A DNA stretch of 63,150 nt from Deltaproteobacteria bacterium RBG_16_49_23 (GTDB taxonomy: Bacteria > Desulfobacterota > BSN033 > UBA1163): NCBI GenBank assembly GCA_001798855.1, contig MGQQ01000149.1, positions 1 through 63,150 of the forward strand. The letters are read 5' to 3'. Below are positions 1 through 63,150 of this stretch, piece after piece. The notes beneath the pieces were generated by a model, which was given only the letters and a program-made list of their open reading frames with translations, was not told the DNA's origin and did not search any database. A program made the position numbers and the translations under genes. Within the stretch, counting starts at the first letter, position 1. The number at the start of each line of letters is the position of its first letter.

Positions 1-2
1 CC

Positions 3-401
3 TGTATTGGTCCGTCGCCTTTTTCGGATGTGCCTGCAAGCAGTCCCTTCTGCAGGAATATCGAGAGGCTTGTGTTCCTTGAGATCACTGCAGGATGCGG
101 ACCAGGTACCTACTGTCCCGGGAACAGTGTGCCCCGGGAACAGATGGCAGCCTTTCTTATAAGAGCAGTACTTCCAGGGAACCCTCCAGGAGTCTGTGCC
201 GCGCCCCCATTCCCGGATGTGCCGGTTGACAATCCCTTATGCACACACATCGAAGAACTTGTTGCGCGTGCGATAACATTAGGATGTATCGGAGATAATC
301 CGGGAACGCCGGAGAATGAAGCGCGCTTCTGTCCAACCAACCTGGTCACACGAGGTCAGATGGCGGTCTTCCTGGGAAGGGCATTCCTGGCTCTTCCTTA
401 G
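3..401 (+). CDS. SLH-like surface protein, 3' end only
   Basis: The reading frame is open from the first complete codon at base 3, so the gene begins outside the window and only about 132 C-terminal residues are seen. They hold two copies of a roughly 55-residue S-layer-homology-like unit: each has a 'PFSDVP'/'PFPDVP' start, an 'IE.L' helix, an 'IT.GC' turn, 'YCP'/'FCP' and an 'R.QMA.FL.RA' helix that ends it. SLH repeats normally attach exported proteins to the cell envelope. The paired cysteines in each unit (GC...YC and GC...FC) are unlike classical SLH domains but fit a variant I associate with deltaproteobacterial secreted proteins. What the missing N-terminal part does cannot be judged. 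A hairpin follows directly after the stop. Confidence 0.8.
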   Translation, partial: CIGPSPFSDVPASSPFCRNIERLVFLEITAGCGPGTYCPGNSVPREQMAAFLIRAVLPGNPPGVCAAPPFPDVPVDNPLCTHIEELVARAITLGCIGDNPGTPENEARFCPTNLVTRGQMAVFLGRAFLALP

Positions 402-408
402 GATCTAC

Positions 409-460
409 ACCTCTTCCGGGATTCCGGGACTTCACCCGGAAGAGGTGGCCCCTTCGGGGC
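409..460 (+). terminator. Double hairpin after the SLH-like gene
   Basis: A perfect 12-bp stem (acctcttccggg, 409-420, with its complement at 435-446) starts 8 bases after the stop codon at 401. A second short stem, gcccc/ggggc, lies at 448-460. There is no T-run, so this is either a weak intrinsic terminator or simply another palindromic module. Confidence 0.5.
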
Positions 461-643
461 AGTTATTTCCTGGTAGCCGCACCCTTCCCCGGCTCGCCCT
501 ATTTGTAGGCCGGGGCGGGAAGGTTGCGTTTCAGGGTTGGTATACCATTGAAGGCCGATACGCAGGCTAAAGCCTTCGGCTACCATTTTTGGTTTTCCCA
601 AATCATCGACAATCTTTTGTCGATATCGATTCCCTAAGGGCCT
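461..643. repeat. Dispersed repeat R1, copy 1 (loop occupied)
   Basis: This stretch is the reverse complement of 36191-36340. The shared parts include the taaagccttcggctacca segment and an atcgacaa/ttgtcgat hairpin. The two copies differ at one place. In the 36-kb copy the hairpin gcaacc-tgaa-ggttgc is intact. Here the tgaa loop is replaced by a second, roughly 40-bp palindrome (about 483-532) with ccggctcgccct and aggccggggcggg arms. Confidence 0.75.
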
Positions 644-1288
644 ACCTCTAAAAACTTCCCTCCTCCCCCAGTTATGACCTGATCCTTACCCATAAATAGG
701 GGCGCTGGACACAAGAGGCGCTCCGATAGATTCCCCATCCCCTTCCTGACCTCCCCCTTGAAGGGGGAGGAATCACGCGAAGCTCGTGATGATTACCTTC
801 CCTTTCAGGAGGAGGACCATAACGATTACCCTCCCCTTCAGGGGGAGGGTTGGGGTGGGGTACGCCAAAGCCTCAATTACACCAGTCGTACGTTCCATCC
901 TTGTGTCCAGCCCCCGACTTATGGGACACGGTAAGAGTTATGACAGGGGAGGGAGGGGAGTTTTTTATGGAGTGTTAGCCTTGAGAGAGAACAGAGATAA
1001 GATGAAAGAGCAGATTTATACTTTATTAAAATCGCACCTGAAAATCCCTCCCTGTGGACGGGGATGAAAGGGCGTCTGCCAAGGGCATAGAAAAGCGAAC
1101 CAGATGCTGAAACAAGTTCAGCACAAGGTTCAGAAGCATGACATAGAGGATTCGGGTCTTGTCTTTTTGTCATCCCGAACTTGTTTCGGGATCTCGATTT
1201 TGGGTTTAGGAATTTAGGTTTTTAAGCCCCGCCCTTATGGGCTGGGTTCTTTACTTTTTTATTCGAATTTAGAATTACTGACGCTATC
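644..1288. other. Non-coding gap rich in palindromes
   Basis: No convincing gene is present. Around 745-860 lie C/G-run hairpins of the cctcccccttgaagggggagg type in tandem. A gctgaa-caag-ttcagc hairpin is near 1105-1120, a tcccgaacttgtttcggga palindrome near 1173-1192, and a gccc...gggc stem near 1225-1245. Short open frames here translate these repeats and look spurious. Confidence 0.6.
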
Positions 1289-1492
1289 TTAACGGGGTGT
1301 TTCATCTGATCCCCCGCCGGTTAGGGTGCATTTTGTAAAATCAATTTCCTGATGGCAGTCCCTGCAAATATGCTTCCTGTCAAATTCATCGGAGAAGATC
1401 TCCGCTTCCTTCCCGCAATTTGGGCATTTGCAGACAAAAGATTTTAGATTTTTAAACCGCTCAAAACCAGGGCAGTGTTTCGGAATACTCAT
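1289..1492 (-). CDS. Small zinc-ribbon protein
   Basis: The 67-residue protein has two CxxC pairs, CPNC at about residues 24-27 and CRDC at about 43-46. Together they form a typical treble-clef or zinc-ribbon zinc site. It carries no membrane segment or signal peptide, so it is probably cytoplasmic. It is the last gene of a minus-strand run of redox genes; its start lies 13 bases beyond the stop of the exported peroxiredoxin. Co-expression with that cluster is likely. I recognise the general type (short conserved zinc proteins in anaerobic Proteobacteria) but know of no assigned function. The zinc site is well supported by sequence and the role is unknown. Confidence 0.75.
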   Translation of the reverse strand: MSIPKHCPGFERFKNLKSFVCKCPNCGKEAEIFSDEFDRKHICRDCHQEIDFTKCTLTGGGSDETPR

Positions 1493-1505
1493 TATTGCCT
1501 CCAGA

Positions 1506-2114
1506 TCATTTTCCCAGCTTCTCCAGCGCGCCCACTAAATCCTCGAGAGGGGGTCTTTTATTGATATCATGTACGTCAATGTATCGAATGGCCCCTTTTT
1601 TATCGATGACGAAGAGGGCCCTTTCAGAGACTCCGTTGGAACGAAGGACACCGTACTTTTTTGCCACCGCCCCGTGAGGCCAGAAGTCCGAGAGCACGGG
1701 AAACCATAACTTGCCCATCTGGTTGATCCATGCAAAGAGGGTAGGAATGTTGTCCACGGTGATTCCCAGCAGAATGGTATCATTCTGGTCGAACGTATCT
1801 TTAATAATATTGTAACCCGGCCATTGATCCGAACAGATAGGCGTCCAGGCCGCAGGGACAAAGGAGAGAGCGACATTCTTCTTTCCGCGAAATTGGCTAA
1901 GTGTAACCTTATCTCCCGAAACCGACGGAAGAGAAAAATCAGGGGCTTGATTTCCCTTTTTCACCACTAACTTGCTGTCAACCGGTTTAATCGTCCCCAC
2001 TTGGTAAATGTTTCCTTTGTAAGCGTCGGATATGGCAAAGGCCATGGAGACCGTGACAAATACTGATAGCATTCCAGCGACCATGATGAGATTGGCTAAT
2101 CTTATCTTTTGCAT
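1506..2114 (-). CDS. Exported AhpC/TSA-family peroxiredoxin, 1-Cys type
   Basis: The 202-residue protein begins with a hydrophobic segment (residues about 8-28) that should act as signal peptide or membrane anchor. A thioredoxin-fold peroxiredoxin domain follows from about residue 52. The motif PAAWTPIC places the peroxidatic cysteine at about residue 94 in the expected P-x3-T-x2-C pattern. No other cysteine is present, so a resolving thiol must come from a partner, plausibly the TlpA-like protein encoded just upstream. The family reduces hydrogen or organic peroxides. Within the cluster it would act in the periplasm while Tpx and rubrerythrin act in the cytoplasm. The family call is firm; export and partner are inference. 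Confidence 0.85.
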   Translation of the reverse strand: MQKIRLANLIMVAGMLSVFVTVSMAFAISDAYKGNIYQVGTIKPVDSKLVVKKGNQAPDFSLPSVSGDKVTLSQFRGKKNVALSFVPAAWTPICSDQWPGYNIIKDTFDQNDTILLGITVDNIPTLFAWINQMGKLWFPVLSDFWPHGAVAKKYGVLRSNGVSERALFVIDKKGAIRYIDVHDINKRPPLEDLVGALEKLGK

Positions 2115-2192
2115 GGTTTCCCCTCCTGCATAGAATTCTCTCCTTTGAGACAGGACGTATTCAATGAAATGATTTTACCCGGAAGCGAAGTT

Positions 2193-2768
2193 TTACTTTA
2201 ATCCGGAGGCTTTAAGCACAAGTTCCAGAAATGGGTCAGCTCCCGGATAGTCGCCTAACTGGGCATGGACGATCTGGTGAGTGCCGTCGTCATTAATCTT
2301 CACAACGATAAAATAGGGGGTCCTCACTTCAGCGCAGGCCTTATGGATGGTGAAGTCCTTATCAGGAAAGAGAGGAAATGGGACCTGATAGGTTTTCTTG
2401 TACACTTCCACTTCAAAAGGGGTATTGCCGGCTCCGATGCCAATTAATTTAATCTTATTTTTTAGATCCGGGTTTTTCTCAATGAAGGTATAGAGTTCAT
2501 TCACCCCGGGGGCATCTTTCTGGCAATAAGGGCAGTACATACTATAGATTTCTATGATCACCACCTTGGCTTTGATCTGTGGGATTTTGAAAAAACCATC
2601 ACCGGATAGCCCAAGATACACCTTTTCAGTTGGGTTCTTAGGAATGGGAAGATTGATCACAGGCAATACCCCACCTTTCTCCGGCGGTTTGTTGGCGGGT
2701 AGAGCGGACGAAACAAGTGTGAGAAGCAGAATGCCGATGACAGGCAATGTTGAATAGATATTTTTCAT
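2193..2768 (-). CDS. TlpA-like exported thiol-disulfide protein
   Basis: The 191-residue protein has an N-terminal hydrophobic signal (residues about 6-24, ending near SALPA) and a thioredoxin-like fold. The CPYC motif is at about residues 79-82, following the strand VVIIEIYSM. A 'TPYF' segment near residue 150 fits the cis-proline loop, and one extra cysteine (KAC) lies just before it. TlpA/ResA-type proteins reduce periplasmic disulfides in cytochrome maturation or supply electrons to peroxidases. The neighbours on both sides are peroxiredoxins, so service as reductant for the exported 1-Cys peroxiredoxin is a reasonable inference. The start has a GGGAGGGA ribosome binding site. Confidence 0.85.
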   Translation of the reverse strand: MKNIYSTLPVIGILLLTLVSSALPANKPPEKGGVLPVINLPIPKNPTEKVYLGLSGDGFFKIPQIKAKVVIIEIYSMYCPYCQKDAPGVNELYTFIEKNPDLKNKIKLIGIGAGNTPFEVEVYKKTYQVPFPLFPDKDFTIHKACAEVRTPYFIVVKINDDGTHQIVHAQLGDYPGADPFLELVLKASGLK

Positions 2769-2799
2769 ACTTTCATCCCTCCCTCAAATTAAATATTTT

Positions 2800-2937
2800 G
2801 TAACACTTTAGCGCTTTGAAAAAACTGATCTAATCCCCCTTTATCCCCCTTTGTCAAAAGGGGGAACACTTTCTCCTCCCTTTGGAAAAGGGAGGTTGGG
2901 AGGGATTTTACAAGATGATTTCAAACCGCTAAATTGA
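2800..2937. repeat. Dispersed repeat C, copy 1 (hairpin loop empty)
   Basis: The ends are inverted: tttagcgctttgaaa on the left and tttcaaaccgctaaa on the right. Inside are a cccccttt/aaaggggg hairpin at 2845-2864 and a ctccctttggaaaagggag hairpin. A second copy is at 35289-35461 and a diverged one at 50497-50612. The stop codon of tpx (2921) lies inside the right end of this repeat. Confidence 0.8.
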
Positions 2938-3448
2938 TACATTTTTTTAAAGCGGCCAGGACAGCTTCGTAATCAGGCTCCATGGAGAGCTCCTGGACCA
3001 GTTGGCTATATTGAAGAATCCCCTTCCGGTCCACCAGAAAGACGGCCCTGGCGAGAAGCCTCAACTCCTTAATCAGCACCCCATAGGAAGCGCCGAAGGA
3101 GGCATCGCGATGGTCCGACAAGGTTTGAACCTTATCCACTCCGCTTGCCGCGCACCAGCGTTTCTGGGCGAAAGGGAGGTCCATACTGATGGTTAAAATG
3201 ACCACATCCGGCCCCAGGCGGTCTGCTTCCTCATTAAATTTTCGAGTCTCTATATCACAGACAGGCGTGTCAAGTGAGGGGACAGAGGATAGGATAGCGA
3301 TTTTTCCACGGAAAGATGAAAACCGGATGGGAGTGAGATTGTTGTCCAGGACAGTAAAATCCGGCGCCTCCTCTCCCACTTGAAGTTCGTTTCCGGCCAG
3401 AGTGAGCGGGTTTCCTTTCATGGTTACGATGCCTGTTCGCTCTTTCAT
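2921..3448 (-). CDS. tpx: Thiol peroxidase
   Basis: The 175-residue protein matches the usual length of Tpx. It keeps the family signature PSLDTPVCD with peroxidatic Cys at about residue 64 and the resolving Cys at about residue 99 (KRWCAASG), the atypical two-cysteine arrangement of Tpx. It reduces peroxides in the cytoplasm or periplasm using thioredoxin. The start has a strong AAGGAGGG site 5 bases upstream. The last residues, NLAV, and the stop codon are encoded by the end of dispersed repeat C, so the C-terminus has been slightly remodelled by that repeat. It sits between rubrerythrin and the TlpA-like gene in the stress cluster. Confidence 0.92.
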   Translation of the reverse strand: MKERTGIVTMKGNPLTLAGNELQVGEEAPDFTVLDNNLTPIRFSSFRGKIAILSSVPSLDTPVCDIETRKFNEEADRLGPDVVILTISMDLPFAQKRWCAASGVDKVQTLSDHRDASFGASYGVLIKELRLLARAVFLVDRKGILQYSQLVQELSMEPDYEAVLAALKKCINLAV

Positions 3449-3506
3449 TGAACCCTCCTTGCTCTTTAGGAAATTCCAATCAATTTGTTGGTTTGAAAAC
3501 CGTCCG

Positions 3507-3535
3507 GTAGGGAACGGTTTTAAACCGTTCCCTAC
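3507..3535. repeat. 29-bp palindrome P, copy 1
   Basis: Two perfect 14-base arms, gtagggaacggttt and aaaccgttccctac, are separated by one base. The same palindrome is at 14137-14165, inside a gene, and at 57797-57825 with one mismatch in an arm. Confidence 0.85.
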
Positions 3536-3715: not shown

Positions 3716-3857
3716 CCTTGAAGACTGTGTCGTAAGTCCGTTTATGGTTCGACAGGCTCACCACGAACGGAAAACCACCTATTTAAAATCAACTACTTAG
3801 CCGTTCACCCTGAGCGTGTCGAAGGGGGAACGGCTAAGTACGACACAGTCTTCAAGG
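3716..3857. repeat. MITE-like element A, copy 1, inside a C/G hairpin
   Basis: Perfect 19-bp terminal inverted repeats, ccttgaagactgtgtcgta at 3716-3734 and its complement at 3839-3857, enclose about 100 bp. The interior includes a ttcgac...gtcgaa-type REP module and a cttagccgtt/aacggctaag pair. The element occupies the loop of an outer ccctctccc/gggaagaggg hairpin. Copies are at 43523-43740 and 59505-59635 in the opposite orientation. No coding capacity. Confidence 0.8.
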
Positions 3858-3946
3858 GAAGAGGGACAGGGTGAGGGGGGAAACGGTATTTGACTTTAGT
3901 CGGCTTCCAGCCGATACCAAAGCTACCGGCTTCAGCCGGTAGTAGT

Positions 3947-8110: not shown

Positions 8111-9079
8111 TCATTCCGGGTAGAGGTGACAGGCTATCCACCTGGCATCCTCGCTCTGATGGAAAAAAGGCTCCTCCTCAAGACATTTTGGAAGGGCATA
8201 TTGACATCTCGTATGAAATCGGCAGCCCGCAGGAGGGTTGATGGGACTGGGGACATCCCCCTCAAGGATGACTTCAGCTCTCTTTCGCCTTGGGTCAAGA
8301 GAGGGGACGGCAGCTAATAGGGCCTTTGTATAGGGATGCGCTGGAGATTGAAAGAGGGTCCTTTTTTCTGCCATCTCTACGACTTTTCCCAAATACATGA
8401 CAGCGACCCGGTCACTGATGTGGCGGATGACGCTGATATTGTGTGAAATAAAAAGGTAGGTCAGTCCGAACTCCTTCTGGAGTCGTTTCATCAGATTAAG
8501 GATCTGAGCCTGGACGGACACGTCGAGGGCAGAAGTGGGTTCATCGGCCACAACCAGTTTGGGTTGAGTGGCCAGCGCCCTGGCGATTCCGATGCGTTGA
8601 CGTTGTCCGCCGGAAAATTCATGGGGATACCGGCTGAGGTGCTCTTTCATTAGCCCCACGGACTCGAGGAGCTGACAGACCTTTTCGACCCTCCGGGATC
8701 CTTCCACCAGGCCATGGATTTCCATCGGCCGTCCCACGATTTCGCTGACGGTCATCCGGGGATTGAGAGAGGCAAAAGGATCCTGAAAGATGATCTGGAA
8801 GGCACGCCTCAGGGGATGGATTTCCTTTTTATCCAGATGGGCAAGGTCCTTCCCTTCAAAGAGAATTTTTCCCTCACTGGGATCGATGAGCTTAAGGATG
8901 AGCCTTCCGACCGTTGTCTTTCCACATCCCGATTCTCCCACGAGCCCCAGGGTTTCTCCATGATGAATTGAAAGATCGATCCCGTCCACCGCCCGGACAA
9001 AGGTCTTTCCCTTCCTCCATCCACGGGCGATGGGAAAATATTTTTTAAGGTCTTTCACGTAGAGGAGAGGTTCATTCAT
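8111..9079 (-). CDS. dppF: Oligopeptide/dipeptide ABC transporter ATPase (DppF/OppF type)
   Basis: The 322-residue ATPase has Walker A GESGCGKT, the Q-loop [12 protein letters not shown], the signature [14 protein letters not shown], Walker [13 protein letters not shown] and the H-loop FISHN. The C-terminal oligo_HPY extension contains GCRFHTRC with cysteines typical of this subfamily. It pairs with the DppD-type ATPase to power peptide import. The ATG at 9079 was chosen because MNEPLLYV is the normal N-terminus and the codon overlaps the dppD stop by 8 bases, as expected for translational coupling; a 30-codon longer frame lacks support. Confidence 0.92.
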
Positions 9080-10055
9080 AGCGCTCTCCCTTTCCGTAGA
9101 GATAACAGGAGACAAGGTGCCCGGGGGAGGTTTGGGAAATCGGTGGAATTTTATGATCGCAGGGAGCAAATCGATGGGGACACCGAGGATGAAATTTACA
9201 ACCCGCGGGAGGTTGGCTCAGGTCCGGGACCGCCCCAGGAATGACCGCCAGGGTTTCCTTTTCCTGATCCACTCGCGGGATAGCTCCCCAGAGCCCCTGG
9301 GTATAGGGGTGTTTGGGCTCTTCAAAAATTTCTTCGACCCCTGCCTCCTCGACGATGGAGCCTGCATACATTACGGCCACCCGGTCGCACATCTCCGCAA
9401 TCACTCCGAGATCGTGGGTGATTAAAAGGATCGACGTTTGCAATTTCTTCCTCATCTCCTTGATGAGCCTGAGGATCTGGGCCTGGATGGTGACGTCCAG
9501 GGCGGTGGTGGGTTCATCGGCAATCAGAAGAAAGGGGTGGCAGGAGAGCTCCATGGCGATCATCACCCTCTGCCTCATCCCCCCACTCAATTGATGTGGG
9601 TATTGTTTCATCACCCGATCGGCATCCGGGATATGAACCCGCTCGAGCATCTCGAGACCCTTCTCGGAGGCACGGGACCGATCGAGTTTCTGATGGAGCA
9701 TGATCAGCTCCATCATTTGATCCCCGATACGAAATACAGGATTGAGAGAGGTCATCGGCTCCTGAAAGATCATCGAGATCTCCTTTCCCCGGATGGACCG
9801 CATCTCATCTTCCTTAAGATGGAGAAGATTTCTTCCCCTGAAGAGGATTTCCCCATCGATTATTTTCCCGGGAGGAAAAGGGATAAGCCTCAGGATCGAA
9901 AGGGCGGTGACCGATTTTCCACAACCCGTCTCTCCCACGAGCCCGAAGACTTCTCCTTCCTCGATATGGAAGCTTACGCCGTCAAGAGCCCGGATGGTCC
10001 GCCCCGACGAAAAAAACTGGGTCTTCAGATTATTTATGTTCAGAAGTGAACCCAT
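9072..10055 (-). CDS. dppD: Oligopeptide/dipeptide ABC transporter ATPase (DppD/OppD type)
   Basis: The 327-residue protein carries Walker [10 protein letters not shown]-loop [10 protein letters not shown], signature [15 protein letters not shown], Walker [13 protein letters not shown] and H-loop LITHD. The C-terminal cysteine motif GCKFHPRC is that of the oligopeptide importer ATPases. It forms the heterodimeric motor with DppF. It is separated from dppC by about 90 bases and overlaps dppF by 8 bases. Specificity cannot be read from the ATPase; the downstream isoaspartyl dipeptidase makes peptide import likely. Confidence 0.92.
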
Positions 10056-14003: not shown

Positions 14004-14738
14004 CTAACCTTTATTCTCAATCTTCTCTTTGACCATTTTAAAAATCTTATGAAACATCGGCCGGGTCAGCCTGCCGGTCTGTGTGTTCTGCTGGCTCGGA
14101 TGGTAGGTGGTGATCAAAGATATCATTCGGGGTGTAGTAGGGAACGGTTTCAAACCGTTCCCTACAGGAGTTCGAATGGGGAAGATTTTCCCATGACCAA
14201 AGGCAAGAGGAGGGACATCGAAGCTCTTCAGTCTCAAACATTTCAATGTCTGTGTAAAAGCAATTTGACCCAGCGGAACGACGACATTCACATTTTTCAA
14301 TAAGTCCAGCTCTTTTAAGAAATAAGGCCGGCAGTTTTCGATCTCTTCGGGCAAAGGTTTATTATCGGGCGGAGCGCATCGGATGGTTGCCGTGATGTAG
14401 CAATCGGTTAACGCAAAATCATCGTCCCGTCTGACCGAGTTGGGTCGATTGGCAAAACCGAACCGGTGAAGGGCTTCAAATAGCCATTCCCCGCTCCGGT
14501 CACCTGTGAACATTCTGCCCGTACGGTTACCGCCATTGGCTGCGGGGGCAAGGCCAACAATGAGCAGTCTGGCATCCGGATCTCCGAAACTGGGAAGAGG
14601 TTTGGACCAATAATCCCAATCTCTGAATCTCTTGGGTCTATGGTCTGAAACCTCCTGGAGATAGGCCACCAGTCTCGGACACTTCCGGCAATGGATGACC
14701 TTTTCCTGCAGCTTTTCCAATTCCCTGCCTAATTCCAT
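14004..14738 (-). CDS. Uracil-DNA glycosylase, family 5 (UdgB), with in-frame repeat insertion
   Basis: The 244-residue protein has the family 4/5 Fe-S cysteines near the N-terminus (HCRKCPRL) and two further Cys (about 113 and 121, in LTDCYI and TIRCAPP). The family 5 active-site motif GLAPAANGGNRTGRMFTGD is intact, as is TTYHPSQQNTQTGRLT at the C-terminal end. It excises uracil and other deaminated bases from DNA. Between FPIRT and ISLITTYHPS a stretch reading PVGNGLKPFPTTPR is translated from the 29-bp palindrome P and its flanks. The insertion is in frame and sits in a loop just before the HPS motif, so activity may be kept. Confidence 0.88.
   Translation of the reverse strand: MELGRELEKLQEKVIHCRKCPRLVAYLQEVSDHRPKRFRDWDYWSKPLPSFGDPDARLLIVGLAPAANGGNRTGRMFTGDRSGEWLFEALHRFGFANRPNSVRRDDDFALTDCYITATIRCAPPDNKPLPEEIENCRPYFLKELDLLKNVNVVVPLGQIAFTQTLKCLRLKSFDVPPLAFGHGKIFPIRTPVGNGLKPFPTTPRMISLITTYHPSQQNTQTGRLTRPMFHKIFKMVKEKIENKG
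14137..14165. repeat. 29-bp palindrome P, copy 2, inside the udg gene
   Basis: Perfect arms gtagggaacggttt and aaaccgttccctac with one central base. It lies within the coding region of the uracil-DNA glycosylase and keeps the reading frame together with its flanks. Confidence 0.88.
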
Positions 14739-14789: not shown

Positions 14790-15306
14790 CCCAAATCCCG
14801 ATTTAGAAATTTTAAAATAGTTCCCTCTCTCTTGACGGGAGAGGGTTAGGGTGAGGGTGAATAGTTCACCTTTAAGGTTACCCCTCCCCCTCGCCCCCTC
14901 CCCTGCCTTCGCCGAAGCGGCTTCGCGCAGGCAGGCGCAAGGGGCATAAGCGCTAACTTAATTAATCTGAAGCCCCGGAGGGGCTTGCATGACAATAGCC
15001 CAGCGATTCATCGCTGGGGAGAAAAGAGATTAAAGTATAGTCCCATCGGGACGATTGAATCCTACCCTGAAAGCGATGTGGACATAGAGGCTGATGTAAG
15101 AATTAGCCATTTCAGACCCCTTTTTCATTCGTCCCCATGGGACTCTCCTTTTTTCATTCCCATCACCGGCGATTAATCGCCGGTCTATTATCGAATATCC
15201 CTATTGGGATTTTCTCTTAAACCTCCCCTCTTCTTAGGTTAGCGCTTATGCCCGCAAGGGGAGGGGGATTTACCTGGAAAACAATTTTCTATCTCTGTTT
15301 TAAGGT
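14790..15306. repeat. Long inverted repeat IR200, left copy, interrupted by element H
   Basis: With the inserted element removed, about 200 bp match the reverse complement of 20734-20933. Shared parts are the outer edge (cccaaatcccgatttagaa), a ccctctctcttgacgggagaggg hairpin, a cctgccttcgccgaag/cttcgcgcaggcagg hairpin and the inner edge (acctggaaaacaattttc). The two copies face each other around the multicopper oxidase and two-component genes. Confidence 0.85.
14942..15253. mobile_element. 312-bp MITE-like element H with 5-bp target duplication
   Basis: The ends are perfect 16-bp inverted repeats, gggcataagcgctaac and gttagcgcttatgccc, flanked by the direct duplication gcaag at 14937-14941 and 15254-15258. 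The homologous site in the other IR200 copy (20782-20786) has a single gcaag and no element. Inside are five short hairpins: agccccggaggggct, cccagcgattcatcgctggg, gtcccatcgggac, ccggcgattaatcgccgg and atccctattgggat. No transposase is encoded, so it must have been moved in trans. Confidence 0.85.
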
Positions 15307-17575: not shown

Positions 17576-17742
17576 GAATTCTGTAATCCCTCAGTTTCGA
17601 GTTTAAGTAATACAAATGCCTTTATACCCCTCTTTGGCAAAGAGGGGGAGGGGGAGATTTTCCAAACATATTTTTAAAATCCCCCTCCATCCCCCTTTTC
17701 CAAAGGGGGATAAAAAACCATAACTGAGGGGTTACAGAATTC
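17576..17742. repeat. MITE-like element G next to a truncated response regulator
   Basis: Inverted ends of 21 bp (gaattctgtaatccctcagtt at 17576, complement at 17722-17742, one mismatch) enclose C/G hairpins including cccctctttggcaaagagggg at 17627-17647. The right end lies 6 bases from the stop codon of the response regulator at 17749. The rest of 17462-17575 holds nothing recognisable. Confidence 0.75.
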
Positions 17743-18420: not shown

Positions 18421-18605
18421 CCTAAATTGAGCGATTTATTTGGAAGGAACCTGTAGCCGAAGGCTTTAGCCTGCGGTTTCCTCTCACCCGTCGGGTGAGA
18501 AATCGTTTCCGACCCGCCTGCCAAAGAACTTGTTCGGCGGGCAGGTAAAATCACGCAACCTAAAGGTCGCAGCTACATTTAGAATAATAAATCGCTCAAT
18601 TTAGG
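18421..18605. repeat. MITE-like element I with 20-bp perfect inverted ends
   Basis: cctaaattgagcgatttatt at 18421-18440 has its exact complement at 18586-18605. The interior carries a gccgaaggctttagcc segment also found in repeat R1, a ctcacccgtcgggtgag hairpin and a gcctgcc/ggcgggcagg module. Outside it, ggaatgttggaat-type repeats at 18327-18362 face complementary ones at 18634-18664. The whole gap 18250-18678 is repeat material between the two response regulators. Confidence 0.8.
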
Positions 18606-18678
18606 TTTCACTTTATTTTATGAGGTTTTTCTATCATCACATTATTCCAAAATTCCAATATTCCATCCTTCCTGTTTC

Positions 18679-20472: not shown

Positions 20473-20601
20473 CTCGTAAAAAGTCAACATCACCCTTCGA
20501 CAGGCTCAGGGTGAACGGTCTAACCTATTGATATTCCGTTCGTGTCCCGCGAAACGCGGGATCGAAGCATGAACGGAATATAGAAAACGACTTTTTACGA
20601 G
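20473..20601. repeat. MITE-like element D, copy 1
   Basis: The ends ctcgtaaaaagtc and gactttttacgag are inverted. The interior has a cccttcgacaggctcagggt REP module and a hairpin with arms tcccgcgaaacgcggga enclosed by attccgttcgtg/catgaacggaat. A second element with the same ends but a different interior is at 55515-55634. The surrounding gap 20328-20733 shows no gene. Confidence 0.8.
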
Positions 20602-20733: not shown

Positions 20734-20933
20734 ACCCTAAAACAGAGATAGAAAATTGTTTTCCAGGTAAATCCCCCTCCCCTTGCGCCTGCCTGCGCGA
20801 AGCCGCTTCGGCGAAGGCAGGGGAGGGGGTGAGGGAGAGGGGTAACCCTAAAGGTGAACTATTCACTCTCACCCTAACCCTCTCCCGTCAAGGGAGAGGG
20901 AACTATTTTAAAATTTCTAAATCGGGATTTGGG
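20734..20933. repeat. Long inverted repeat IR200, right copy (uninterrupted)
   Basis: This 200-bp element is the reverse complement of 14790-15306 minus element H. The empty target site of H is at 20782-20786. Its own ends are loosely inverted to each other (accctaaaacagagatag and the complement of cccaaatcccgatttag), which suggests that each copy is itself a small mobile element. Confidence 0.82.
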
Positions 20934-22302: not shown

Positions 22303-22660
22303 TGTTCGATAAGGCAATGCCAAATGTCAAAATCCAAATGCCAAATGAAATCCAAAGTTCAAATTAAAAACTTTTTGGAATTATTAATCGGTCCTTAATT
22401 GAATAGACATCTGATTAACCCCACCCCCACCCTTCCCCTCCCCCTGAAGGGGAGGGAAATCATTGAGTTCCTCCCCCTTCCCCCGGTCCCGCCCTATTCA
22501 ACAGACCGGGGCGGGGAAGGGGGAGGTTAGGAGGGGGATGGGGATTTGTCGGAGCAGTATAAATGTGTCTTCTCAATCAAGGACTCATTGATAAGTTATT
22601 TGTCATTCATTTGAACTTTGACATTTGAACTTAGGATGACGAGATCCAGCGGAGGTTCCT
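22303..22660. repeat. Gap of nested inverted repeats
   Basis: ccaaatgtcaaa/ttcaaat units near 22320-22370 face their complements near 22600-22635. Inside, cctccccctgaaggggagg is followed by a larger cctcccccttccccc/gggggaggttagg hairpin whose loop carries a ggtcccgccc...gggcgggg palindrome. No gene is seen. Confidence 0.6.
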
Positions 22661-27949: not shown

Positions 27950-28160
27950 ATTGTTAACAGTTTCAGAATTGCATTGACATAACCTTTGAAAAATCTCCCC
28001 CCCTGCCTATGCCGAAGCGGCTTCGCGCAGGCAGGTCACCCCTCTTTGCCCTCCGGGCCAGAGGCCCTATGGGCCGGCGGCCAAAGAGGGATAATGCCTC
28101 CCTTAGGAAAAGGGAGGTCAGGAGGAATTTTACGAATCGATGTCTTTACTATTTTGATAC
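27950..28160. repeat. Repeat gap with occupied hairpin loop
   Basis: cccctctttg at 28039-28048 and ccaaagaggg at 28081-28090 form an outer stem, and a ccctccgggcc/gggccggcgg palindrome (28049-28080) fills the loop. The empty form of the same outer hairpin is at 17627-17647. A cctgcctatgccgaag/cttcgcgcaggcagg module lies just upstream (28002-28035). The outermost ends, ttgttaacagtttc and actgttaataac, are loosely inverted. Confidence 0.75.
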
Positions 28161-34016: not shown

Positions 34017-34112
34017 TTCCAATGGAATATTGGAATGGCGGCGAAGCGATAAAAAATTATGCTGTGAGAATAAACCCAATATTCCAGCCTTCCATTCTTC
34101 CATTATTCCAAC
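34017..34112. repeat. Inverted ggaatattggaat-type repeats between convergent genes
   Basis: ccaatggaatattggaatgg at 34019-34038 faces aatattccagccttccattc-type sequence at 34079-34110. It lies between convergent genes and could act as a bidirectional terminator. The same repeat family brackets 18327-18664 and 40282-40472. Confidence 0.55.
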
Positions 34113-34119: not shown

Positions 34120-35181
34120 TTATTCGAAGGCAATCTCTATCACCCGTTCGATCACTTTCATATAATCCTTAAATTCGATTCCATCGACGGAGTGGTCCTG
34201 TTTGCAGGTGATTCCATCGATGGCTGGGCCATGATGGACGAGGTAGTCCAGGACCTTTCCTTCCTGTTCCGGCGTAACTTTTTGGAGAATATCGAGTTTA
34301 TCTCTGGCCAGAGCCATTCCTGCCATCAACGCATATCCCCCCCAATTTGAGATTCCGCTTGAGATAAAATAGTCCGTTTCCATCCGGCAGCAGAAAACGG
34401 GTTCCCGGTGAGTGATGGCGTGTTCCCAAAAAACCTCCCACGGTATCCTTCCCGAGCCGATCTCATTGCCACGATCTCCGATTCCGATTGTCTCAACAGA
34501 GAGATTCCATCTTTTTTTAAATTCAAGAAGAAGATGAGTCCTGGCTGTAAACCGGGTAATATCCTCCAGGCGGGAATTGAAACACCGGTTTCTGATAGAA
34601 GGGGTGAGGACGGATTCAAACTCTTTTACCGGCGGGTTTCCTTTTCGATCCTGAGCGAGAAAGGATTCGAGCGTGTGATTGGGACCCACCCGTTCGATAT
34701 AAATGAGGTGAGAAAGGTCCAGCCCCAATGGGCCGTTGAGAAGTTCCTCAATGAAACGGAGAGACAAAGGGCTGGCGTGATCCATATCGGAGCGCTCCAG
34801 CGGAAAACAGATGAGGGGAACCTCCTTTTCAGAGAGGTTGAGTATCTTCAGACCTGCCTTAAGGGTTGGAAGGGTGTATTCATCAGAGAGAAGGGAGACC
34901 TCCATGCCCAAATATTTTAGCCCTTCCGCCAGAATGAGGGCGCCAGGAGGACCATCGGTCTCCGTGGCCGGAGGTTCTCCGGCAGGGATATAAAAGCCGG
35001 TAACGATCATCACTTTTCGCCCATTCTCGACGAGAGAGGAGACCGCCCCTGTTAAATCGGAATAGGGGACCATGGAAAGGTTTTCCCAGTGATAGTTTCG
35101 GTGGTTCAGGAGAGAGGTCGGGAAATTGATCACCTCCTCCATCAAAAACAACTTATCCCGAATCGTTTTAGGTAAGGCCAT
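34120..35181 (-). CDS. D-glutamate cyclase-like protein (DUF4392)
   Basis: The 353-residue protein carries the DUF4392/GLUCM_C signature. VMIVTGFYIPAGEPPATETDGPPGALILAEGL is near the N-terminus (residues about 57-88), IERVGPNH lies in the middle, and IGIGDRGNEIGSG is at about 238-250. In mammals this domain converts D-glutamate to 5-oxo-D-proline. The bacterial versions are little studied. It is convergent with the TAXI-TRAP operon, whose receptor family binds glutamate, so uptake and handling of glutamate, D-glutamate or pyroglutamate is a reasonable hypothesis. No signal peptide is seen, so it is cytoplasmic. Confidence 0.82.
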   Translation of the reverse strand: MALPKTIRDKLFLMEEVINFPTSLLNHRNYHWENLSMVPYSDLTGAVSSLVENGRKVMIVTGFYIPAGEPPATETDGPPGALILAEGLKYLGMEVSLLSDEYTLPTLKAGLKILNLSEKEVPLICFPLERSDMDHASPLSLRFIEELLNGPLGLDLSHLIYIERVGPNHTLESFLAQDRKGNPPVKEFESVLTPSIRNRCFNSRLEDITRFTARTHLLLEFKKRWNLSVETIGIGDRGNEIGSGRIPWEVFWEHAITHREPVFCCRMETDYFISSGISNWGGYALMAGMALARDKLDILQKVTPEQEGKVLDYLVHHGPAIDGITCKQDHSVDGIEFKDYMKVIERVIEIAFE

Positions 35182-35288
35182 AAGATTTGTTTATCGTTGT
35201 CGATGCTCGTATCGATGCTTGTTTACAACGAGACTCGATTTTCGATTTTAAGATTCGATACCAGCCTCGCCAACGAACACCGGGTTTC

Positions 35289-35461
35289 GTAACAGTTTAG
35301 CGCTTTGAAAAACTAATCTAATCCCCCTTTATCCCCCTCCTTCGACAAGCTCAGGATGGTGAGCAAGTCGAACCATTTGTCAAAAGGGGGAAATGTTTTT
35401 CCTCCCTTTGGAAAAGGGAGGTTGGGAGGGATTTTACAAGACGATTTCAAACAGCTAAATT
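35289..35461. repeat. Dispersed repeat C, copy 2 (loop occupied)
   Basis: It matches 2800-2937 end to end except that the cccccttt/aaaggggg hairpin is split by a 38-bp insert at 35339-35376. The insert begins ccttcgacaagctcagg and ends gcaagtcgaacc and is itself palindromic at its ends. Nothing else is recognised in 35182-35473. Confidence 0.82.
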
Positions 35462-35473
35462 GCCGCCGAGTTT

Positions 35474-36190: not shown

Positions 36191-36340
36191 AGGCCCTTAG
36201 GGAATCGATATCAACAAAAGATTGTCGATGGTTTGGGAAAAACAAATGGTAGCCGAAGGCTTTAGCCTGCGTATCGGCCTCCAATGTAATATCGACCCTG
36301 AAACGCAACCTGAAGGTTGCGGCTACCAGGAAATAACTGC
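36191..36340. repeat. Dispersed repeat R1, copy 2 (loop empty)
   Basis: It is the reverse complement of 461-643, with the intact gcaacctgaaggttgc hairpin at about 36305-36320. Further on, a ccgttcatgcttcgatcccg/cgggacacgaacgg module (36490-36530) matches the core of element D copy 1. No gene is seen in 36122-36784. Confidence 0.75.
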
Positions 36341-36784
36341 CCGAAGTCCCGCTCTTAGCGGGATTCCGGGCGAAGTCTCGGACGAGGCATAGATTCTTAC
36401 ACAATAAAGTCTGAGAATTTATCTCTAACATTTAACAAAGGCCCTCACAAAACTGTCCCCTCCCCCGTCGAAGGGTGGGTAATTGAAGCCGTTCATGCTT
36501 CGATCCCGCGTTTCGCGGGACACGAACGGCTTATGTGAACAGCATTAAGCTTAGTCTCAATAATGGATGGATTTTAACTGATATTCTTCCCAAGAGACAA
36601 CAGAAAAGAGGGCGGGGAAGAATTTGAACATGAGGTGGGCAAGAAATGGCCTTTTAATCTTTTTAATATGGTGGGGGGCAAAATAATCTCTTTTAATATT
36701 ATTAGGTTAAATTGCATAGAAAGATTTGGTATGGGAAATGCAGTAGTAAACACCTATCAAATCCCGTATAGGGGGAGGAAAACG

Positions 36785-40281: not shown

Positions 40282-40475
40282 ATGGAATGGTGGAATATTG
40301 GAATAGTGGAATATTGGGTAAAGATTACCACTACCTCAAACCCAAAAAAAATTGGCATTTTTTCTATTCAAATCATGTCTTCTATTTACCCCGTTAGAAA
40401 TAATGCCCCGCTGGAATTTCTAACGGGGTTTACTTCATTATTCCATCATTCCATTATTCCAAAATTCCATTTCCG
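40282..40475. repeat. Nested inverted repeat downstream of the HD-GYP gene
   Basis: ggaatggtggaatattggaat-type units (40284-40318; core ggaatattgg) face attccattattccaaaattc-type units (40447-40470). Inside is a hairpin with arms ccccgttagaaat and atttctaacgggg (40389-40431). Confidence 0.65.
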
Positions 40476-42034: not shown

Positions 42035-43537
42035 ATGCGCATTTTAATAGCAGAAGAAGATTTCAGTTTCTTGAAGATGGTTGAAGATTCTTTGAAGGTT
42101 TCAGGTAGCCTTTATCATATTGAGAAGGTTTCCTCTGGAGAAGAGTGTTTGAGAATGCTCCAGAAAGAGAAATTCGACATCCTTCTCTTAGACCACCTCC
42201 TCCCTGATGGAGAGGGGTTGAACTGGCTCAGGCGGTTTAATGAGTTGGGCATTGGGATTCCCACAATTTTTGTTACAGCCAAAGGGGACCCACAGATGTC
42301 CGTCCTGGCGATGAAGGAGGGGGTCTTTGACTACATCAACCGGTCCGCTGAATGCGCCAAAGCCTTCCCCTTTGTCGTCAACCGTGCTGTGGAGGGCCAT
42401 ACGTTAATGGTAGAAAAAGTCAGGCTTCAGAAGGAACTGATCGAAACAAAGAACTTTCTCGAATCGATCGTGGAGAAGGCAGGAGATGCCATTTCAGTGG
42501 TTGACCTTGAAGGGAAGATTCTTTATTGGAATGAAGGGGCGGAACAGATTTACGGGTATAGGAAAGATGAGATGTTAGGGAAAAAACTCTCTGATTTTCT
42601 CTACCCTCGAGATAAAAAGTTGAGAGAAGAAGAAACGAAATTGATGGGAAGCATTATGGAGCGGGTCAAGAAGGGAGAGGTAGTTCCCAACATGGAAGTG
42701 AAGAGGCAGACCAAGGAGGGAAGGGAGATCATTACAAGCATGACGATCTCACCGCTTAAGGATGCGGAAGGAAGGGTCATCGGCGCCTCTCGCATCTGTA
42801 AAGATATCACCCAGTTGAAGAAGGTGGAGGAACGACTCGCCCTAACAGAAAGGTTAACCTCTTTAGGGGAGCTTACGGCAGGAGTGGCTCATGAACTTCG
42901 AAATCCATTGGCAGGAATCAAAATCAATACACAGATCCTGTCAAGGAAGAGAGACTTTCCTGAAATGGAGAGACGCCTATTGGATAGCACATTGGAAGGG
43001 ATCGGGAAGATCCAGAAGATTGTCGATGATATGCTCCATTTTGCCAAACCGAAAGCTTCCCATTTTAAACTGGAGGAGATCAATGAGGTGGCGGAAAGCA
43101 GTCTTGCCATCTTTCAGACAAAATTGAAGAAGGGCAATATATCTCTACTATTCCAAAAAGGCGAGGCCCTGCCGAAGGTTTGGATCGATGCCCACCAGAT
43201 CCAGCAGGTCCTGACCAACCTGATGCTCAATGCCATTCAAGCAATGGAGAAGGGTGGCACATTGGCTTTACGGACCTTTTCAGATGGAAAAAATGAAGTG
43301 GGCATTGAGGTGAAGGATACCGGTGCCGGGATTCCAAAATCCCATCTCAAAAAGATTTTCGATCCCTTTTTTACGACCAAATCCGAAGGCACGGGACTCG
43401 GCCTCTCCATTAGTATTAATATTTTAGGAAGTCATGGAGCGACTATTGATGTGGTTAGCGAGGAGGGAAAGGGGTCAACCTTTATCATTCATTTTTCCCC
43501 CTCACTTTCCCCTCTCCCCACCGAGACTGTGTCGTAA
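42035..43537 (+). CDS. Hybrid sensor: REC-PAS-HisKA-HATPase histidine kinase
   Basis: The 500-residue cytoplasmic kinase begins with a receiver domain (1-120; Asp in ILLLDHLLPDGEG; the usual KP is NR in FDYINRS). A PAS domain follows (about 140-270; DAISVVDLEGKILYWNEGAEQIYGY), then HisKA with the phospho-acceptor in GVAHELRNPLAG and HATPase_c with DTGAGIPKSHLKKIFDPFFTTK and GTGLGLSI. The start at 42035 has a GGGAG site. The last residues (SPSLSPLPTETVS) and the stop are encoded by hairpin B and the left end of element A. It is the likely partner of the NtrC-type activator that follows. Confidence 0.9.
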   Translation: MRILIAEEDFSFLKMVEDSLKVSGSLYHIEKVSSGEECLRMLQKEKFDILLLDHLLPDGEGLNWLRRFNELGIGIPTIFVTAKGDPQMSVLAMKEGVFDYINRSAECAKAFPFVVNRAVEGHTLMVEKVRLQKELIETKNFLESIVEKAGDAISVVDLEGKILYWNEGAEQIYGYRKDEMLGKKLSDFLYPRDKKLREEETKLMGSIMERVKKGEVVPNMEVKRQTKEGREIITSMTISPLKDAEGRVIGASRICKDITQLKKVEERLALTERLTSLGELTAGVAHELRNPLAGIKINTQILSRKRDFPEMERRLLDSTLEGIGKIQKIVDDMLHFAKPKASHFKLEEINEVAESSLAIFQTKLKKGNISLLFQKGEALPKVWIDAHQIQQVLTNLMLNAIQAMEKGGTLALRTFSDGKNEVGIEVKDTGAGIPKSHLKKIFDPFFTTKSEGTGLGLSISINILGSHGATIDVVSEEGKGSTFIIHFSPSLSPLPTETVS

Positions 43538-43740
43538 TTCGCCGTTCACCCTTCGACACACTCAGGGCGAACGGCTAAGTAATTGATTTTAAATGTGCCT
43601 TTTTCCGTTCGTGGTGAGCCCTTCCTTCGACTTCGCTCAGGACATTCGGAAAAACCGTTCGCCCTGAGGCTCTCGAAGGGACGAACGGTTCGCTCAGGAC
43701 AGGCCCTGTCGAACCATGAACGGACTTATGACACAGTCTC
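43523..43740. repeat. MITE-like element A, copy 2
   Basis: gagactgtgtcgtaa on the left and ttatgacacagtctc on the right are inverted ends with one mismatch. This copy is longer because additional ttcgac/gtcgaa REP modules are inserted in its middle. The histidine kinase ends inside its left terminus. It lies in the loop of an outer ctctcccc/ggagaggg hairpin. Confidence 0.8.
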
Positions 43741-43777
43741 CATTGAGGAGAGGGAGGAGTAAGGGGAAGAGGGAACC

Positions 43778-57796: not shown

Positions 57797-57825
57797 GCAG
57801 GGAACGGTTTGAAACCGTTCCCTAC
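57797..57825. repeat. 29-bp palindrome P, copy 3
   Basis: gcagggaacggttt and aaaccgttccctac form the arms, with one mismatch. It ends about 30 bases before the start codon of the beta-CASP protein. Confidence 0.8.
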
Positions 57826-59467: not shown

Positions 59468-59504
59468 AAGCAATTCACCCCTCACCCTCCCCTCTCCCCC
59501 ACTG

Positions 59505-59635
59505 GAGACTGTGTCGTAATTCGCCGTTCCCCTTCGACACGCTCAGGGCGAACGGCTAAGTAGTTGATTTTAAATGGGTGGTTTTCCGTTCGTGGTGAGC
59601 TTGTCGAACCATAAACGGACTTACGACACAGTCTC
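59505..59635. repeat. MITE-like element A, copy 3
   Basis: gagactgtgtcgtaa (59505-59519) and ttacgacacagtctc (59621-59635) are perfect inverted ends. It lies in the loop of a larger cctcaccctcccc/gtgggatagggtgagg hairpin (about 59479-59662). It is the shortest, cleanest copy. Confidence 0.85.
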
Positions 59636-59690
59636 CCGGGGAGTGGGATAGGGTGAGGGGGAAAAATTTAGAAGGGGAAAGAAATCAGTC

Positions 59691-60908: not shown

Positions 60909-60974
60909 TGTTACAAATCAGTTCATAATTCCCTCCCCCTTCGAGGGGGGAGGGAGGGTGTGGGGGTGGACAAG

Positions 60975-61373
60975 ATGGAAAAGAGACTTCTGGTTTTTTC
61001 GGGATTGATCGGGTTTCTTTTATCTACTGTTTTGATTCCGGTTTGCCGTGCGGGCGTGGTCATCGAAGAGATTCACAGGAATATGGAGGGCAGGATGAGC
61101 AGGGTCATCCGCTACTTTTCGGGAGACCAATTTCGCACAGACCACCCGGAGGGGGGAGTGTCAACCATCATTGACTTCAAGGGAGACCGGATTATCATGA
61201 TTGACCACTCATCGAGAAGTTATGTCGAAATTAAATTCTCCCTCTCCCCCCATTCGTCACCATTCGTGAAATTCGTTCGTAGTAATCATTTTCTTCATTC
61301 GTGCCTGCGCGCTGAAGTGCTGTGTTTCGGCACGCAGGCGTGGGTGCCCTCTGGGCATGATGTAATTACCTAA
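60975..61373 (+). pseudogene. Exported DUF4412-like protein, truncated by repeat
   Basis: The first 90 residues look genuine: a signal peptide (about 1-26) and a beta-rich start with RVIRYFSGDQFRTDHPEGG and IIDFKGDRIIMIDHSSRSYVEI. They resemble the beginning of DUF4412-type periplasmic proteins, normally over 180 residues long. From about residue 92 the sequence becomes repeat-derived (SPHSSPFVKFVRSNHF, then translation of a gcctgcgcgctgaag/gcacgcaggcg hairpin at 61301-61340). The gene has therefore lost its 3' half. It converges on and overlaps the next gene by 4 bases. Confidence 0.6.
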
Positions 61374-61861
61374 AACTTCACATCGAATTGGTTGAGACGG
61401 GGATCAATGCCTGCCCGGATATCCGAATCTTCAAGCACGCCAATCGCGATCACCACCTTTACAGAAGTCAGGGTTCCGGGCGTGAGATGTCCTCCCAGAG
61501 TGACCACCTGATCGTTCATCACTGTCGAGGCAGAGAAGTGGGCATGGATTTCTGCTCCGCCATCTTCCCGGGCGGCAATCCATCCGGTGAGGGAGACGAT
61601 CTCCATGGGCTGCTCCAATTCAAGGTAGAGGCGATGGCGCTTCTCCACCTTTAAATCGGGAGGCAATATCTTTAAATTCCTGAAAGTGGCCTTTTTCAAA
61701 GCCCCGATGCCCGAGAGAATCACTCCGGTTTTGATTCTTTCTTTTTTAACAAGCTCTTCGATCCCTTCCAAAAGATCGACATCCATTCTTAGCTTTCCCA
61801 TCAGCACACGGTCCATCCGGCCCCTTCCCACTCCTTCCAGCAGATCGCAAGCGCTTCCCAT
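61370..61861 (-). CDS. PPC/DUF296-domain protein
   Basis: The 163-residue protein matches the PPC (PD1-like, DUF296) domain. GKLRMDVDLLEGIEELVKKERIKTGVILSGIGAL is at the front, SLTGWIAAREDGGAEIHAHFSAS in the middle and GGHLTPGTLTSVKVVIAIGVLED near the end. The HAHF segment and GGHL histidine resemble the metal-binding residues of bacterial members. Plant homologues bind AT-rich DNA, while bacterial ones form trimers of unknown role. A GGGAGATAG site precedes the ATG. It is monocistronic. Confidence 0.88.
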   Translation of the reverse strand: MGSACDLLEGVGRGRMDRVLMGKLRMDVDLLEGIEELVKKERIKTGVILSGIGALKKATFRNLKILPPDLKVEKRHRLYLELEQPMEIVSLTGWIAAREDGGAEIHAHFSASTVMNDQVVTLGGHLTPGTLTSVKVVIAIGVLEDSDIRAGIDPRLNQFDVKF

Positions 61862-62353
61862 CTCTATCTCCCTTCAATTTCTATTAACCCCGTCATTGTA
61901 ATTGAGTAGTCCCAAACATTGCAATCAATTGCCAAAAAATTTCAATTATTGTCATAATTTACTGTTTTTGGTATATGTAGGGCACTCAGGGTGGGGGAAT
62001 TTAATTCTTGAATAGAAATTTAGTGAAGAGGAAAAGTTAGGTGTTACGACTAACCCCTGACGCCTTGCCTGCCTGCACGAAGCCTTGGCGAAGGATGACG
62101 CTACCTGTCCTCCGCAGTCCCGCCCGCTGCGCCGGCGCGACAGCGCGGCGAGCAAGGCGGGACGTAGGAGGATGCGCTCTGCGTTGTGTTGATATGGGAG
62201 TGGGTGAGATTTCTGAAAGAAAAAGAGAAGTGAACGATTTCGACAACGTCCCTGGACTTCGATGGACTTCACGGCCCCCATTTGACGAAAGTTTGATTCG
62301 CTTAATGATATCTGCTTGCTGAACGCTGAGTAGCTGACAGTTAATTGTTTCTA
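61862..62353. repeat. Gap with repeat E copy 1 (loop occupied)
   Basis: 62060-62195 matches the reverse complement of 62930-63040. Its gtcccgcc...ggcgggac hairpin (62117-62163) carries in its loop a gctgcgccggcgcgac/agcgcggcg palindrome (about 62124-62152). The rest of the gap holds no gene. Confidence 0.7.
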
Positions 62354-62548
62354 TTAAATCTCCGCTTTATCCACCAGCTCCCTGTAATAGGCAATGCACT
62401 TGGGGCAGGATTTATCTTTCTCCTGCCATTGCGGATGGTCTTTTTTTATCAATTCAATAAGATATTCATCGGCTTTCACGTGCACCAGTGCATGGTCTTC
62501 ATGCACCATCCGGCCGCATATCTGGCATTCATATTTTTTCCGTTCCAT
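62354..62548 (-). CDS. Small zinc-finger-like protein
   Basis: The 64-residue protein has two CxxC pairs, CQIC at residues 8-11 and CPKC at about 48-51, separated by a His-rich stretch (MVHEDHALVHVKADEY). This is a likely mononuclear zinc site. It is cytoplasmic, has no partner gene nearby and no recognised family. The pattern resembles short conserved proteins of Deltaproteobacteria. Confidence 0.7.
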   Translation of the reverse strand: MERKKYECQICGRMVHEDHALVHVKADEYLIELIKKDHPQWQEKDKSCPKCIAYYRELVDKAEI

Positions 62549-63150
62549 GGATTGATAAGAACTCGCTTGGGGATGAGTTGAATATACAAAAGAAGGAGTA
62601 GTATGTCAAGGAAAAGCGACCTCAAGATATGGGAGTGCGTTCTTCATCCATTCAAACTTCAGCCCGGTACCGGACTTGAAAGCTGGGTCGAAGCACCCTG
62701 AGAAAGGAGTTTCGCAGATTGTAACCACAAAATCATAAGCGCTTAAGAATCTTTGATTCAATTTTCAACAAGGAGTTAAATGGGGCATCCACAGGAAGGG
62801 GGGATTCGCCTTTCTTCATCTGAGAGGACCGGTTTATGGGGTCAAAGAGGCGGGGTCAAATCTTTATCCTTGACTTTGTCAGAAATACCGGTGTCACCCA
62901 CAAAAAAGTTAGCCCTGTTTTATCAGCGGGGCGCGTAAAGCATCCATCCTACGTCCCGCCTTGCGGGACTACGGAGGACAAGTAGCGCCCGCCTACGCCA
63001 AGGCTTCGGTGGGCAGGCATAGCGCAGAGCGATATCTCAAGCTCAATACAGAGAGATGGGCTCGGGCGAGACCCTTTCGAATCAAGTTTGAAGATGAAAG
63101 CCGATACATTTGACCCTTTCCTTTTTCCTTCCTCTTTTATTCTGGAAGCA
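62549..63150. repeat. Terminal gap with repeat E copy 2 and inverted gggtcaaat ends
   Basis: No gene is recognised. gggtcaaat at 62853-62861 and atttgaccc at 63108-63116 are inverted; in many genomes such ends flank REP-associated tyrosine transposase (RAYT) genes or their remnants. No such coding sequence is visible between them. Within lies repeat E copy 2 (62930-63040) with the empty hairpin gtcccgccttgcgggac at 62953-62969. Confidence 0.6.

Follow-up and report, generated by a model that had tools for sequence, protein, structure and literature searches.

The window analysed here is the whole of contig MGQQ01000149.1 (63,150 nucleotides) of Deltaproteobacteria bacterium RBG_16_49_23, which is contig C149 of a 3.83-Mb draft genome in 171 contigs. 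Orthologs of its genes are found on contig C138 of genome G006. A homolog of the protein encoded at 34120-35181 is present in three named relatives (Yes70-18 among them) with 81-88% amino acid identity, and these relatives are Thermodesulfobacteriota/Deltaproteobacteria metagenome bins. The intergenic DNA of the window carries several families of small palindromic repeats, and some hairpins occur both as a plain stem-loop (empty) and interrupted by a second palindrome (filled). The original prediction, made from the nucleotide sequence of the window, listed five such pairs and suggested a mechanism that recognizes hairpin tips, such as a single-strand transposase acting in trans or template switching during replication. 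Our analysis showed that the nesting is real and that insertions prefer hairpin loops. The preference is genuine, about twofold, not absolute, and spans many families.

To measure this preference, a sample of 712,816 bases (about 713 kb) of the same genome was assembled from the window and 36 other stretches (L numbers designate stretches and G numbers genomes; Z, R1 and the other family names were coined in this analysis). After an all-against-all repeat comparison, pairs were kept if the flanks were homologous and the insert measured 12-260 nt, and they were then realigned. The five predicted pairs were also folded and aligned individually. The procedure yielded 151 filled sites, and removal of 30 whose flanks were weak, whose inserts were short or tandem, or whose junctions were not clean left 121 strict sites that grouped into 54 strict site-by-insert clusters. 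The loop rule was generous, as an insert in a stem arm (pair 1, below) was also counted as loop, and some of the clusters counted probably reflect shifts in the alignment instead of insertions. The samples are enriched in repeats because the stretches were selected by matches to the repeat MITE-C (a miniature inverted-repeat transposable element, MITE), to Y1 transposases or to an element designated A. Contigs with MITE-C or Y1 matches supplied the first 20 stretches, element A ends guided the choice of 15 of the next 16, and those of the sister species G007 were picked for MITE-C or A matches.

In the genome that contains the window, 28 of the 54 strict clusters were located in the hairpin loop of the empty copy, while 12.2 were expected from an even spread over the same empty sequences. 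A count of 28 was reached in none of 100,000 simulations. When the same inserts were placed at random and realigned, the loop count averaged 11.2 and did not exceed 18 over 150 rounds; therefore, the aligner is not the source of the loop excess. Counting one event per host group (26 groups) gave 10.7 in loops versus 4.1 expected. Without filtering, 30 of 67 clusters were in loops (14.4 expected), and when only loops of up to 8 nt were considered the count was 24 of 67 (10.8 expected), the largest of 20,000 simulations being 22. The same procedure applied to 347 kb of G007 placed 10 of 19 clusters in loops (5.56 expected; reached in 1,281 of 100,000 simulations), and 11 of 23 when empty copies from G000 were added (6.02 expected; 811 of 100,000).

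Pairs 1 to 4 are insertions that distinguish homologous copies of a repeat (Table 1). The members of pair 1 are copies of MITE-C, a repeat of about 140 nt with inverted ends, and their ungapped stretches are 92-97% identical. They are indeed empty and filled forms, but the 38-nt insert is not in the loop as predicted; it is preceded by CCCCC or CCCCCT and lies in the 5′ arm of the stem, 3 nt ahead of the 4-nt loop. Seventeen distinct empty copies were found in the sample, and the insert is also present at the identical position in L028 and L047. The two hairpins of pair 2 belong to one family, E. The link between them is L043, which is filled by a like insert and aligns to position 17638 over 54 and 100 nt. 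The insert is a 33-nt palindrome at the tip TTTG^GCAAAG. The members of pairs 3 and 4 are homologous and in opposite strands. A 33-nt insert occupies the GA loop in pair 3, for which there are five distinct empty copies, and a 30-nt insert is found at the 3′ edge of the loop in pair 4, which was missed by the automatic procedure and aligned separately. Pair 5 was correct in that element A and R1 are present in B-type hairpins, CT-rich structures that resemble repetitive extragenic palindromes (REPs): A lies within three of them, and R1 at the 3′ loop edge of three others. However, R1, the REP module of the prediction, is not loop-specific, and only for the R1 at 20788 did the automatic procedure find a homologous empty copy; the remaining sites share the hairpin type with the empty B hairpin.

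Table 1. Hairpins and nested palindromes in the window.
Feature	Position	Strand	Remarks
MITE-C copy, both hairpins empty (pair 1)	2796-2941 (ends approximate)	+	Hairpin 1, 2845-2864; hairpin 2, 2875-2895
MITE-C copy, hairpin 1 filled (pair 1)	35285-35466 (ends approximate)	+	Hairpin 1, 35333-35390; hairpin 2 empty, 35401-35421
R2-type 38-nt palindrome	35338-35375	+	In 5′ stem arm of MITE-C hairpin 1
Family E hairpin, empty (pair 2)	17627-17647	+	
Family E hairpin, filled at tip (pair 2)	28039-28090	-	TTTG^GCAAAG
Z insert, 33 nt	28050-28082	-	In family E tip
R1 module	28002-28035	-	Beside, not inside, family E hairpin
GCAACCT-GA-AGGTTGC hairpin, empty (pair 3)	36305-36320	+	
33-nt palindrome in GA loop (pair 3)	488-520	-	Same family as X (22481-22516); filled copy 477-540
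GTCCCGC-CTT-GCGGGAC hairpin, empty (pair 4)	62953-62969	+	
V-type 30-nt palindrome at loop edge (pair 4)	62123-62152	-	Filled copy 62117-62163
B hairpin (CT-rich, REP-like), empty (pair 5)	14823-14846	+	
Element A in B hairpin	3721-3852	+	
Element A in B hairpin	43523-43740	+	Enlarged by inner insert
Element A in B hairpin	59505-59635	+	
R1 at 3′ edge of B-type loop	20788-20821	+	Homologous empty copy L035:12193
R1-type module at 3′ edge of B loop	26342-26375	+	
R1 at 3′ edge of B-type loop	14902-14935	-	
X, 36-nt palindrome in B-type hairpin tip	22481-22516	-	Host 22470-22526; 4 distinct empty copies
Y, perfect 17-nt hairpin in place of R2-type hairpin tip	36504-36520	+	Host 36489-36529
Y in second R2-type hairpin	20545-20561	-	Host 20536-20576
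MITE-D hairpin, 14-nt loop empty	40389-40428	+	Other copies: several different inserts in same loop
86-nt palindromic insert in R2-like hairpin inside element A	43620-43705	+	Third level; 6 distinct empty copies

The deepest arrangement is found at 43495-43765, where a B hairpin contains element A, which contains an R2-like hairpin, which in turn contains an 86-nt palindrome. With RNA energy parameters this region folded into a largely continuous nested structure. Elsewhere, a hairpin of the type GTCATTCC..GGAATCCAG carries two different palindromes near its tip in two species (L066:4136-4167 and L091:17435-17467).

Element A is bounded by 15-bp ends, GAGACTGTGTCGTAA, present 72 times in the genome at up to one mismatch, with one match for the backward control. 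The 31 sampled copies measure 124-277 bp (19 of them 124-132 bp), too short to encode a transposase. One window copy used as the query matched sequences in 8 of 21 genomes, all in the genus of the window. A perfect 3-bp direct repeat was present at the ends of 17 of the 31 copies. A duplication of 5 bp had been considered and was dropped for 3 bp after a scan of offsets and widths, at the best of which agreement was 0.78 when the flanks were matched and 0.32 when they were swapped. Dropping one of the repeats restores palindromes such as CCTCTCCCC-CCA-GGGGAGAGG, in which the duplicated bases lie in the loop. The element was in loops in 23 of the 31 copies (8.8 expected), including 15 of the 17 with a perfect duplication (5.7 expected). 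Its terminal inverted repeats, short length and 3-bp target duplication make element A a MITE. Cut-and-paste elements leave a target duplication, whereas IS200/IS605 elements and REP-associated tyrosine transposase (RAYT) elements are not known to do so. Target duplication was absent in Z (33 nt) and in R1. At least two chemistries are involved, that of A with a 3-bp duplication and that of Z and R1 without it. The predicted preference for hairpin loops was supported across many families, while the idea of a single hairpin-tip mechanism was not.

Insertion rather than deletion is the favored polarity because element A leaves a duplication, the same inserts occur in unrelated hosts, and there are multiple empty copies; at least two distinct ones, and up to 25, were found for 86 of the 151 filled sites. 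The same facts bear on the proposal that the long and short forms arise without transposition, by slippage during replication, by template switching or by deletion at hairpins. Y replaces the tip of R2 instead of interrupting it in 4 of 10 Y matches, and Z forms tandem runs at some places, as such a process could produce. Template switching does not easily explain, however, why Z, U/W, V, X and A each recur in unrelated hosts, and the duplications at A and the multiple empty copies also argue against a process of this kind, which we regard as very improbable.

The Z motif, a high-copy short palindrome, gave 192 hits versus one for the control. Its arms were complementary in 65 of 303 cases (reversed-tail control, 1 of 145; a YCT-loop control, with 40 of 212 complementary, overlaps TCT and is hence not clean). 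The conserved tail of Z is CRGAG, with no GTAG or CGTC tag. A genome of another family of the phylum, G112, had 17 Z-motif hits, and the other listed genomes outside the family of the window had at most five. Six of the 14 Z clusters are at tips (3.1 expected), as are three of the five U/W clusters (1.6 expected). U/W was rejected as a supported hairpin-plus-tail family: its 15 distinct complementary arm pairs are within the shuffled range (mean 11.1, maximum 27), and the claim for U/W is therefore limited to recurrence at tips.

Another possibility is that insertion is guided by sequence only and the target motif happens to fall in loops. R1 behaves in this way. Its 29 listed matches comprise 24 intact copies and five 3′ parts of T-filled copies; GGRG follows 23 of the 24 intact copies, and G or A precedes all 24. 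Some copies are at the loop edge of B and others below the MITE-C or family E hairpin. Insertion of R1 goes by sequence, often outside hairpins, and therefore gives no evidence for tip recognition. A G also comes next after 28 of 30 Z copies in the register used, although it may be part of Z itself. On the other hand, the tips occupied by Z vary in sequence (TTTG^GCAAA, CTGCA^GAGCAG, CCCA^GAG), the 3 bp duplicated by A vary and yet lie in the loop in 15 of the 17 perfect cases, and the loop enrichment was observed inside the same host sequences under two nulls. As a general account, guidance by sequence only is unlikely.

The candidate agents were searched for in the genome. Eight Y1 transposase loci exceeded the Pfam cut-off, none with A ends or R1 in the fetched stretches, and two partial PF02371 hits were found. 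A Z-like unit was present at one of the eight Y1 loci within the 1.9-3.3 kb fetched around each (L001, on one side, adjoining a MITE-C end) and at none on both sides. Host repeats found near Y1 loci were the MITE-C hairpin (L003 and L006), MITE-D (L002) and B (L006). The Y1 locus at L003:1228-2023 is located among five GTAACTCA-type palindromes in a typical REP-RAYT layout whose sequence is unrelated to the nested repeats. The inserts examined (12-277 nt) contained no Y1 transposase, the gene by which an IS200/IS605 element would be identified.

The existence of eight Y1 loci, the lack of target duplication in Z and R1, and the REP-like structure of the Z unit, a hairpin with a short conserved tail, are what would be expected if one single-strand transposase of the RAYT or IS200/IS605 type recognized hairpin tips in trans and moved all the inserted palindromes. 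Y1 matches and Z hits also correlated weakly among 17 genomes of the family (Spearman 0.50, p 0.04), and within the genus (n=10) the coefficient was 0.59 (p 0.07). In G012, at least 11 short end fragments with the same score inflate the Y1 count. But individual genomes disagree, with 13 Y1 matches and 3 Z hits in G003 versus 9 and 192 in G000. Moreover, of the seven Y1 loci examined, four (L001, L004, L005 and L007) have inverted ends of their own, of GGGGTCAG type, as boundaries, and L003 alone is bounded by multiple REPs belonging to the locus itself, GTAACTC-tagged palindromes of a different family. As neither A nor R1 flanks any Y1 locus in the DNA fetched, the involvement of a RAYT is unproven, and with the 3-bp duplication left by A, a single transposase for all inserts is decidedly improbable.

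Several transposase families were tried and rejected as the partner of A. PF01609 and PF13751 had no hits in the genome, and the two partial PF02371 hits, of IS110 type, lacked A ends. The ISAzo13 family (PF07592), a candidate on account of its end and duplication rules, had none in the genome, and no A-like end with fewer than five mismatches was present in the fetched stretches. Within the genus, PF07592 matched three genomes out of ten, namely G002, G005 and, with a broken piece, G001. These ISAzo13-type matches (L099, L100 and L101) had no counterpart in 14 control genomes. Among the 72 listed A ends, none faced another at a distance that would fit a transposase unless a closer partner was present.

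A more far-reaching reading would be a general structure-directed pathway in this lineage by which unrelated small folded repeats would enter exposed tips of any sequence and build Russian-doll palindromes of at least three levels; we consider this reading unlikely. An alternative is that insertion is random and that selection, acting on hairpins that work as terminators or RNA structures, spares the copies whose outer stem is intact. Loop-filled copies do retain the outer stem, by definition. Nevertheless, many of the hosts are mobile repeats in their own right, and insertions outside loops are retained, which makes selective survival quite unlikely.

Several observations weigh against insertion directed by hairpin structure. 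Twenty-six of the 54 clusters are outside loops, including five of seven of R1, eight of 14 of Z and two of five of U/W, and the uniform null takes no account of sequence preference. Fourteen of the 31 A copies, all three window copies included, have no perfect duplication. Flanks of A swapped between copies formed a hairpin in 55% of pairings, versus 74% for matched flanks, a consequence of the CT-rich left and GA-rich right arms common to nearly all sites. Searches with PF13751, PF01609, PF07592 and PF02371 (other families were not searched) revealed no autonomous partner of A in the 171-contig draft, and neither an A end nor R1 was found in the DNA fetched around any of the eight Y1 loci. 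The Z arm test was weak in G007 (10 of 126, with four arm types; the shuffle maximum was likewise four). Finally, orthologous empty sites were lacking in the three named relatives (L021, L022 and L023) because their intergenic DNA is almost fully turned over. The 26 gaps between aligned genes that were shown (nine in L021, nine in L022 and eight in L023) nearly all held other sequence, and by eye a comparable repeat was kept only in the 36.5-kb gap of L023.

Palindromes nested inside palindromes have precedents. The small dispersed repeats of Nostoc that Elhai et al. described in 2008 are reportedly 21-27 nt long, with a structure conserved by compensating changes, and self-nested. They are from a different phylum and are likened here on the basis of that description; a preference for hairpin tips was measured in the present genome. 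The Nostoc work is cited in PMC3116915 and PMC3733652. The original prediction knew of no described system that systematically nests different palindromes, but nesting is already in print (PMC3733652, PMC1525189, PMC2670323). REPs are found inside palindromes in three bacteria (GTAG-15, GTAG-23 and CGTC-1; PMC3733652). These cases involve one REP family per species and one palindrome type and are mentioned in passing, whereas here insert families and hosts are both numerous, nesting reaches several levels and the loop preference was measured, and Z has neither GTAG nor CGTC. Some insertion sequences (ISs), namely ISPsy8, ISRm22, IS1397 and IS621, target REPs and insert into the palindromic repeat; ISPsy8 does so at the symmetry axis of its REP with a 3-bp duplication and ISRm22 at the palindromy axis (PMC1525189). 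Element A is like ISPsy8 in both respects and therefore works like a REP-targeting IS, although membership in an IS family was not shown. It differs in being mostly 124-132 bp (19 of 31 copies) and geneless, with no autonomous partner found in the families searched. Z, a small hairpin with a short tail, resembles the REPIN/RAYT (TnpAREP) system as outlined in PMC3116915 and PMC8266576, but its two units are direct tandem repeats rather than an inverted pair, and it has no GTAG and, within the DNA fetched around the eight Y1 loci, no RAYT gene flanked by it on both sides. In the organelles of Volvox carteri, palindromes are often inserted within other palindromes (PMC2670323); this is organelle DNA with mutually related families, and no insertion-site statistics were noted in the accessible parts of that article. 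GC clusters merge in yeast mitochondria (PMC4478555), and the portions seen of a report on hairpin elements of sponge mitochondria mention no nesting (PMC2800124). A literature search that covered few subscription papers revealed no bacterium with many families nested at loops and the preference quantified.

How geneless repeats of 17-35 nt spread through bacterial genomes is an open question. In this lineage, several such families share a measurable landing preference, their hosts are present both empty and filled, and A shows its cut. The landing step is thus open to population sequencing and biochemistry, and the system exemplifies structure-directed target choice outside the known REP-targeting insertion sequences.

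Other repeats were observed in the window. A 29-nt palindrome, GTAGGGAACGGTTTNAAACCGTTCCCTAC, whose two ends are GTAG and the complement of GTAG, is present at 3507-3535, 14137-14165 and 57797-57825 (one copy starts with GCAG), and another repeat that starts with GTAG is found at 18453 and 36249. A unit of about 8 nt containing ATTCCA forms short tandem runs at 18626-18673, 34079-34110 and 40430-40469. In the region 8487-9956, two adjoining stretches have repeated pieces in common (71 and 83% identity), which may reflect the tandem duplication of a gene.

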